Shown here: positions 51,426 through 54,400 of the stretch, one piece after another
How the letters are laid out: each line of letters opens with the position of its first letter
Numbering within the stretch: position 1 is the first letter of the stretch
NCBI RefSeq assembly: GCF_000188155.2
Contig: NZ_KE124774.1
Span: forward strand, 2,920,356-2,984,355
DNA from: Methylocystis sp. ATCC 49242
GTDB taxonomy: Bacteria; Pseudomonadota; Alphaproteobacteria; Rhizobiales; Beijerinckiaceae
Direction of reading: 5' to 3'
DNA: 64,000 bases
The notes under the pieces: model-generated
Told to the model about the DNA's origin: nothing
The model's input: the letters and a program-made list of their open reading frames with translations, nothing else
The model's database searches: none
Position numbers and translations under genes: made by a program

Positions 51426-54400
51426 TCAGGCGCTCCAGCGGCCGAGCGCCTGCAACTCGCGCAGCGCCTGAGCGTCGCGGCGGGTGACGCCCGGATATTC
51501 CGGATCGGCGGTCGTCGGGTCGAAATATTTCCATGAGCGCGCGCATTTCACGCCCGATGCGCGATTGGGGACCACCGCCACATTCGCGACCTCGGGCAGA
51601 CGGAACGCATCTGCGGGACCATCGCCGGATTCGATGCGAATATCCGAAACGATGCAGATTTCCGCGAAATCCACGCCGTCGAGATCGATGCGCAGCTTGG
51701 CGTCGGAAATATAGACTGTCGGAGCCGCTTCGAGCGAGGAGCCGATGCGCTTCTGCGCGCGCTCGATTTCCAGCGCGCCGGTGACGACCGAGCGGATGGC
51801 GCGCACGCCCTCCCACTTCTTGGCCAGCGCCTCGTCGCGCCAATGCGACGGGACGTCGGGGAAGCTCTCGACATGAACCGACGTCGCATCGGGATAGCGC
51901 GCGAGCCACGCCTCTTCCGCCGTGAAGACGAGAATCGGCGCGAGCCATGTCGTCACGCAGCGGAAGATCCGCTCGATCACGGCGAGGGCCGCCTTGCGCT
52001 TCACGCTCGACGGCGGCTCGCAATAGAGCGTGTCCTTGCGGATGTCGAAATAGAAGGCGGAGAGATCGCTTGTCATGAAGGGCGTGAGAAGCGCCACGAC
52101 CTTCTTGTAATCGAAAGCCGCATAGGCGGAGCGGACAGCGGCGTCCATCTCGACGAGACGATGCAGCATGAGACGTTCGAGTTCGCCCGCATGTTCGAGC
52201 GCGGCGTCGTCGCCCGATTCGTAATGCGCAAGCGTGCCCAGCATCCAGCGCAGCGTGTTGCGCAATTTGCGATAGAGTTCGACGAAGGTCTTGAGAATTT
52301 CCGGACCCACGCGCAGATCGTCGGCGTAGTCGGACGCCGCGACCCACAGGCGCAGAATGTCGGCGCCCGAATCCGCGATCACCTTCTGCGGCGCGACGAC
52401 ATTGCCGAGCGACTTGGACATCTTGCGTCCCTTCTCGTCGAGCACGAAGCCATGCGTCAGCACGGCGTCATAGGGCGCGCGCCCGCGCGTGCCGCAGCTT
52501 TCGAGAAGCGAGGAATGGAACCAGCCGCGATGCTGGTCGGAGCCTTCGAGATACATCACCTCATCGGCGCCGCCATCGCGCTTGCGGTTGATTCCGGCAA
52601 GCGCGGGGAAGTTCGCCGGATCGTCCAGCACGAAGGCGTGCGTGGAGCCCGAGTCGAACCACACGTCGAGAACGTCGGAGACTTTCTCGTAATCAGCGGG
52701 ATCATATTCAGGCGCGAGGAAACGCGCGGCGGCGCCGGTCTCGTACCAGGCGTCGGCGCCTTCCTTCTCGAAAGCCTCGACGATGCGGGCGTTGACGCGC
52801 GGATCGACGAGAATGTCGTGCGTTCCCTTCTTCACGAAGACCGCGATCGGCACGCCCCAGGCGCGCTGGCGCGAGACGACCCAGTCGGGACGATTGGCGA
52901 TCATGCCGCGGATACGATTCTCGCCGGCCGCTGGCGTCCATTGCGTGCGCGCGATCTCTTCCAGAGCGATGGCGCGCAGCGTCGGCCGATTTCCGCGATC
53001 CGTATCCTGAGGAGCTTGCGAAGCGCGCGCCTCGTCAGGATGAGGGTTCGATTGCGAGAACGGCTTGTCCATCGCGATGAACCATTGCGGCGTGTTGCGG
53101 AAGATGACCGGCTTCTTCGAGCGCCAGGAATGCGGATATTGATGCTTGAGTCTGCCGCGCGCGATGAGATTGCCCGCGGTCACGAGGGCCTGAATCACCG
53201 ATTCATTGGCGTCGCCCTTGTCGCCCTTGTCGGTGATGACGCGTTTGCCCTCGAAGCCCGGCGCTTCCTTCGTGTAGAAGCCATCCTCGTCGACCGTGTA
53301 GGGAATGCGCGCATCGATTCCGGCCTCGGCGAGGCGACGGCCGTTCGCCATCCATATATCGAAGTCCTCGCGGCCATGTCCCGGCGCCGTGTGCACGAAA
53401 CCCGTGCCAGTGTCGTCGGTGACATGGTCGCCGTCGAAGAGCGGCACGTCGAAATCGTAACCCAGATGCGCGAGGGGATGGGCGCAGACGAGCCCGCTCA
53501 GCATCGCGGCGGGAACGTCATGCAGGCGCTCATAGGCGTCGACCTTGGCGGCCTTGAACACTTCATTCGCCAGCTTGTCGGCGAGGATGAATTTCGAGCC
53601 CGGCAGCGCCCAATTGTTCTCCGGCGCATGGGTGACGTGGTAGAGGCCATAATCGATCTTCGATGAAAAGGAGATCGCGCGATTGCCCGGCAGCGTCCAG
53701 GGCGTCGTCGTCCAGATGACCACGCGCGCCTCGGAGAGGTCGCCTTCCGCGCCGCGCGGGATGGGGAACGCCACCCACACCATGTCGCTGGTGTGATCCT
53801 CATATTCGACTTCCGCTTCAGCGAGCGCGGTCTTCTCGACGACCGACCACATCACGGGCTTGGAGCCGCGATAGAGCAGGCCGTTCTCCGCGAATTTCAT
53901 GATCTCGCGGGCGATGATCGCCTCGGCGGGATAGGCCATTGTCGCATAGGGACGATCCCACTCGCCGGCGACGCCGAGGCGCTTGAACTCCTCGCGCTGC
54001 ACGGAAAGCCAATGCTCCGCATAGGCGCGACATTCGCGGCGGAAGGCGACCATTTCCTCTGGCTGCGCGAAGTCGGGCTTCTTCTTGCCCTTGGCGCGGT
54101 AGTTCTCTTCCTCGATCTTCCATTCGATCGGCAGGCCATGGCAGTCCCAGCCCGGCACATAGACGCAGTCCTTGCCGGTCATGCGCTGGCTGCGCGTCAC
54201 CACGTCCTTGAGGATCTTGTTCAGCGCGTGGCCGATATGGATGTTGCCGTTGGCGTAGGGCGGGCCGTCATGGAGCGTGAATTTCGGGCGGCCCTTCGCC
54301 GCCTCGCGCATCTTTTCGTTGAGGCGGATTTCTTCCCAGCGCTTAAGGAACTCGGGCTCGCGCTGGGGCAATCCCGCGCGCATCGGAAATTCCGTGACCG

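Follow-up and report, generated by a model that had tools for sequence, protein, structure and literature searches.

The window, by which we mean the whole 64,000-nt stretch of Methylocystis sp. ATCC 49242 DNA that was analysed, carries ileS on the minus strand; its product scored 781.6 bits against TIGR00392 (cut-off 621.4) and contained the Pfam domains tRNA-synt_1 and Anticodon_1. A length-variable linker of the enzyme contains one unit of a palindromic repeat, here called type A, which also forms an intergenic pair in the window and an array within another gene of the same genome. The features are as follows:

51426-54449, minus strand: ileS, isoleucyl-tRNA synthetase of 1007 aa, the host gene (ORF, TIGR00392, Pfam)
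52983-53057, minus strand: length-variable linker of IleS, residues 465-489, 25 residues running from a block of ten residues to TLR (length variance, pLDDT)
53003-53046, minus strand: type A palindromic unit in ileS, in frame, single and worn (repeat match, arms, relatives)
30370-30412, minus strand: intergenic type A copy, first of an inverted pair (matrix score 53.0; inverted repeat 30369-30413/30442-30486)
30443-30485, plus strand: intergenic type A copy, second of the pair (matrix score 58.6, the best in the window)
L026:456-3014, on contig C6 near 3863900 of the same genome: MmeI-like gene

On the plus strand, the ileS unit starts with TATCCTGAGGAGC and ends with GGATGAGGG, and its 11-nt arms are 91% complementary. 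The original prediction held that a palindromic repeat lies in frame in this gene and that it is akin to an intergenic palindrome at 30369-30487, and both statements were borne out. The stretch 52985-53080 had seven matches in its own genome, itself and six others (78-90% over 31-54 nt), the best by E-value being 86% over 42 nt (53004-53045, E 4.9e-6). The type A core, TCATCCTGAGGAGC, occurred at 20 sites in the genome with up to one mismatch, compared with one site for the reversed control. Around the core matches, 25 full copies of about 45 nt, equal to 15 codons, were extracted from 13 loci, with ileS excluded.

An ungapped matrix built from 24 equal-length copies of these 25 placed the intergenic pair at the top of the window, as members of the same family, followed by 53001-53043 in ileS with a score of 4.1. 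Sixty 64-kb windows simulated with a first-order Markov model reached at most 1.2, which puts the ileS copy above chance by only a small margin; the ungapped score is low because the right half of this copy is shifted by 2 bases. The hairpin at the site was also ordinary (z -0.3, with 67 of 196 windows of the gene more stable), and the copy in the window is a worn one. Rfam gave no match to 52800-53300 of the window at E values up to 1, nor to seven filled ileS loci at gathering scores. The intergenic pair is flanked by ORFs at 29423-30208 (plus strand) and 30538-31128 (minus strand), and the only ORFs spanning it, of 80-198 aa, look spurious by eye. The place ranked fourth by the matrix, 40423-40465, scored -1.3 and may be a diverged copy.

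Other in-frame copies in the genome, which the original prediction proposed to look for, were found in the gene of the MmeI-like DNA methyltransferase. Five type A units, all among the 25 copies, follow one another in frame at residues ~401-506 (~105 residues), between the methyltransferase and target-recognition domains. Eight ORFs (126-293 aa) overlapping type A copies beyond this gene were scanned and no Pfam family was detected in them. In other Methylocystis genomes, in-frame elements were found in PBP1C, CobN, LpxK, DnaE and LigD (L184, L248, L262, L266, L267); the element has domains on either side in LigD and DnaE, and the protein's own sequence on either side in LpxK. Folding confirmed the palindrome in all five and in the MmeI-like gene. 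The C-terminal tail of TatB also carries an in-frame element, which was not folded, in a protein scoring below the curated cut-off of TIGR01410. In 13 of 20 further candidate hosts, the element starts no later than residue 30 of the open frame, which probably places it ahead of the genuine start; these were rejected, and the remaining seven were scanned with Pfam.

The extra segment in IleS had been put at 17-25 residues. The addition itself was confirmed and its size had to be revised: the linker counts 30 aa in the window (the count used in the hairpin scan below) and 9-19 aa in the nine genomes of the genus with short linkers, so that ~11-21 residues were added by this comparison. In the structure of Priestia megaterium IleRS there are 6 residues where the window IleS has 34, the alignment stopping at Priestia residue 415 and resuming at 422, which correspond to residues 460 and 495 of the window protein. 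We know of no such extra segment in E. coli IleS. The predicted IleS model (45 sequences, mean pLDDT 79.8) matched IleRS folds, with pLDDT below 50 at residues 467-486; low pLDDT here proves little on its own, as other stretches of the model, some of them conserved, were also below 50.

Relatives with and without the insert were compared, as had been suggested. ileS was sought in 39 Methylocystis genomes and none was found in G023. In the other 38 the site is present; inserts were read as palindrome-derived in 29, belonging to at least three unrelated families, and nine had short linkers. By eye, the 38 sites were assigned to type A (7), type B (7), type B with half of a type A (2), type C (4), a short C-like form (1), type D (2), type E (1), type F (3), type H (2) and short linker (9). 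Types B to E and H seem to share a nested-hairpin architecture and may form one superfamily, while A and F look unrelated to this architecture and to each other. The linker accounted for 90% of the length variance of IleS, with 21 distinct lengths among the 36 genus sequences used (two partial genes of the 38 were left out). A second variable place in IleS, at residues ~231-239, was considered as a hot spot and rejected: a motif located it in 32 of the 38 genes, missing six, and 29 of the 32 had an identical 15 aa, while the five longer forms, when folded, contained no compact palindrome by eye.

Type A was present at the same place of ileS in six other Methylocystis genomes, most of them with flanks in common. 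In five (G005, G033, G031, G035 and G026), two type A units face each other and the flanking bases are largely identical to those of the window, and in G003 there is a three-fold partial repeat. Most relatives with this type of insert have it paired, and the window has it as a single unit. The window copy looks like either a pair of which one unit was lost or a unit never paired at all. Two more small palindromes are nested within the type A pair of G026 (L174), and an in-frame segment similar to these nested palindromes lies within the type A element that G024 carries in the tail of TatB (L154).

A separate observation concerns an 11-residue duplication of the FIAMDK-SIASG type directly before the insert in 12 genomes of the genus (L031, L038, L039, L043, L171-L174, L178, L181-L183). 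It is doubled in G026 and partial in G033, and was seen solely together with palindromic inserts.

On a quick protein tree from which the linker had been removed, the type changed at least 18 times within the genus, or 12 times with B to E and H merged; both counts rest on types assigned by eye and on a tree in which some branches are weak, and a change can be mimicked where ileS has recombined. Such recombination between species could also move inserts without any fresh insertion.

Of the lettered types, A, B and F were searched individually against their home genomes, as were the Rhodoblastus CGTC insert and those of Boseaceae BT-24-1 and L101. All of the searched inserts matched dispersed repeats of their own genome, L101 weakly. 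Type F occurs in ileS in exactly those three genomes in which it scored as abundant, G006, G007 and G022, with at least 48, 48 and 52 matches, respectively (both strands of the palindrome counted); the closest dispersed copies reach 93% identity with the insert. Elsewhere, type F had one to four matches in ten genomes and none in 26, among the candidates scored, up to 24 per genome. Type B insert DNA had matches in at least 31 of the 39 genomes, among the candidates scored, up to 22 in each. In G007, the coding context of 20 type F copies was also checked, and nine had spanning ORFs. Five of these ORFs, of at least 200 aa, were rejected as hosts, three having no Pfam family and two a domain solely downstream of the element; the four loci with only shorter ORFs were outside the Pfam scan.

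The insert of Rhodoblastus acidophilus DSM 142 (L097) had 50 matches in its own genome, one of them itself and the others over ~29-50 nt, with dispersed copies up to 100% identical over 30-34 nt. The linker is empty in Rhodoblastus strain MO, whose ileS is 88.6% identical and which is perhaps another species than DSM 142. The BT-24-1 insert had 72 own-genome matches including itself, one of 94% over 128 nt. The type A-like insert L101 had just one other match in its draft genome, a short one of 85% over 39 nt, and it is not well supported as a dispersed-repeat insert.

A wider comparison covered 80 loci, 11 of which were taken to be the same contigs as genus genomes. Repeat-like inserts were recognised by eye in L072, L073, L074, L083, L084, L091, L097, L101, L113, L122 and L127, from records of Methylocystis, Beijerinckiaceae, Rhodoblastus, Bosea or Boseaceae, Rhodopseudomonas and others. 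Fifteen of the 80 loci failed the motif and are absent from the tree and hairpin counts; they have the usual short linkers except L084, L109 and L111, L084 being a repeat-like insert.

A hairpin scan in 90-nt windows was carried out on 92 ileS genes. The linker site was the most stable window in 29 of the 34 genes with a linker of at least 35 aa, in 2 of 27 with intermediate linkers and in 1 of 31 with linkers below 20 aa. Two filled sites, those of G003 (type A) and G014 (type H), were not the most stable window of their genes. The palindrome would have been a coincidence if the same segment were present in all Hyphomicrobiales IleS with unrelated DNA. What was found instead is that linkers of 9-27 aa without a recognised repeat are common among relatives, that long linkers are mostly strong palindromes, and that those searched match repeats of their own genomes.

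The stems were compared in eight equal-length type B inserts from one clade, leaving out the type B insert of G008 (81%). The eight are 91-98% identical to the query, which came from G009, the eighth of them, and copies outside ileS reach at most 84%; they look like a single insertion that was inherited. Their stems had a mean difference of 0.022. Third-position stem sites differed by 0.018 compared with 0.207 at third positions in the rest of the gene, and fourfold-degenerate stem sites by 0.025 compared with 0.196 (resampling P 5e-5, which ignores linkage). A copy outside ileS, taken from seven genomes as a control, had values of 0.007 in the stems, 0.143 in the loop, and 0.078 and 0.119 in the flanks; it is spanned solely by ORFs of 66-220 aa and may or may not be coding. 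In ileS and control alike, stems change about ten times more slowly than flanks or third codon positions, and the stem sequence is locus-specific (stem loci L168, L182, L171, L172, L173, L042, L179, L180; L289-L293, L295, L296). Since the control copy is conserved just as strongly, a role of the conserved stems specific to ileS is not indicated and was dropped. Candidate explanations are selection on the hairpin and a process in which one arm corrects the other.

Taken together, the segment in the window is very probably a worn copy of the dispersed type A repeat that was inserted in frame, in a setting where repeats land widely and the linker tolerates the copies that keep the frame. Several unrelated palindromic families would have spread through Hyphomicrobiales genomes as selfish or neutral repeats resembling REPs or Rickettsia palindromic elements, landing across the genome. 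For a copy in an essential gene to persist, the protein would have to accommodate the added residues and the frame would have to stay open. The linker after QWFIAMD could be such a tolerant place, presumably exposed at the surface and neutral for the enzyme, so that the families active in a lineage would end up there, with later copies replacing, nesting in or shortening older ones. The weak ungapped score and the ordinary hairpin of the window copy weigh against this explanation. The slow change of the stems also counts against it, as this is not what inert debris predicts. So do possible recombination of ileS between species, the sites of G003 and G014 that are not the most stable windows, and the single short match of L101.

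It is rather unlikely that the ileS position is a true hot spot, owing to a local property of the DNA that attracts palindromic elements whatever their family, or to hairpins that persist there through their influence on replication or translation, with stems actively kept. A more specific proposal, which we regard as improbable, is that the ileS DNA is itself an insertion target, a near-palindrome in the FIAMD codons attracting hairpin-dependent insertion or template switching. Such a near-palindrome, GTCCATCGCGATGAAC, does adjoin the insertion point at 53067-53082, with overlapping 9-nt arms that are 89% complementary. By reading, inserts of differing families end within ~25 nt, and the FIAMDK-SIASG duplication accompanies palindromic inserts in all 12 genomes having it and none of the nine short linkers, a count without statistics. 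However, the insert ends differ among families, with no common target nucleotide or duplication seen, and the FIAMD residues are also present in empty sites. Tolerance of the linker, as opposed to targeting, would be the likelier cause of its reuse.

Another, very unlikely possibility is that the insert serves ileS in some way, such as by forming a hairpin in the mRNA that would slow the ribosome or adjust expression, and that lineages repeatedly recruit any available hairpin. Strong hairpins of differing sequence at one place, and the low divergence at fourfold stem sites of the eight type B inserts, would agree with this. Nevertheless, the nine genomes with short linkers and many relatives do without such an insert, the site is hardly ever the most stable window when the linker is below 20 aa, the window's own hairpin is ordinary, and the control copy, whether coding or not, keeps its stems equally. 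That the resemblance is chance, the linker being ordinary coding DNA that is self-complementary, can be given almost no credence for the window copy, modest as its margin over the simulated maximum is and freely as linkers of 9-27 aa vary among relatives, in view of the within-genome E-value, the six other genomes with type A at the same place and mostly common flanks, and the close dispersed copies of the type F and Rhodoblastus inserts; for the ileS site as a whole it is already refuted.

The preferred reading, an in-frame copy of a dispersed repeat, agrees with the parallel to Rickettsia palindromic elements drawn by the original prediction. These elements were reportedly described by Ogata and colleagues in 2000 and 2002. 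As in Rickettsia, the repeats here are palindromic and lie in frame within several unrelated protein genes, and type A is dispersed both between and inside genes. The elements are filed here as RPE-like on these features, and not as RPEs proper. In contrast to Rickettsia, the hosts are G+C-rich, free-living methanotrophs and their relatives.

According to Table 1 of PMC3767692, the isoleucyl-tRNA synthetase of R. japonica contains RPE-7, its PBP1C contains RPE-6 and its DNA polymerase III alpha contains RPE-4; these three genes are hosts common to the Rickettsia elements and those found here. That paper favours a single ancient insertion followed by divergence and leaves hotspots possible; passages of PMC3733652 and PMC10969869 also describe Rickettsia palindromic elements. 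Unlike the Rickettsia elements as presented in those passages, unrelated families here occupy one site, next to relatives in which it is empty.

For CGTC-tagged REPs, a passage of Di Nocera et al. 2013 (PMC3733652) mentions intragenic cases including tRNA synthetases, and two Xanthomonas species whose recB genes hold differing REPs in nearly the same position; the number of families per site and the contrast of empty and filled sites seen here exceed the recB case as told there. On one strand, the Rhodoblastus acidophilus insert reads CGTCATTGCGAG...AATCCA, and it is the sole insert to fit the CGTC head and CCA tail of these REPs, a fit read on head and tail alone. In types A, B to E and F, no CGTC head was present by reading, and the combination of CGTC, CCA tail and 8-9 bp stem that defines the superfamily was not found. 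The QMITEs of Coxiella burnetii (PMC5896051) and Br-REP1/2 of Bradyrhizobium (PMC5082802) are also palindromic proteobacterial repeats, likened here by description from passages of these papers. QMITE2 is said there to give genes extra residues in frame, and the passages on either group make no mention of the reuse of a single site. A feature of MITEs, a common target-site duplication, was not seen by eye at the ends of the ileS inserts.

Among the literature matches listed, none dealt with palindromes inserted in ileS, whether in Methylocystis or across Hyphomicrobiales. The phenomenon is real and RPE-like. To what is known it adds hosts that are free-living, a site used by several families, relatives in which this site is empty or filled, and the agreement between a lineage-specific repeat and the lineage-specific insert in ileS.

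To summarise, protein segments arising from palindromic repeats, best known in Rickettsia and Wolbachia, also occur in free-living bacteria. The ileS linker is a replicated natural experiment, in which one loop of an essential enzyme is empty or filled by unrelated repeats across dozens of relatives. This system allows tolerance to be tested against targeting, insertions to be dated by the repeat family active in a lineage, and the way in which palindromic repeats maintain their stems to be measured. If the position were a true hot spot, ileS would offer a natural landing site for studying the movement of REP-like DNA.
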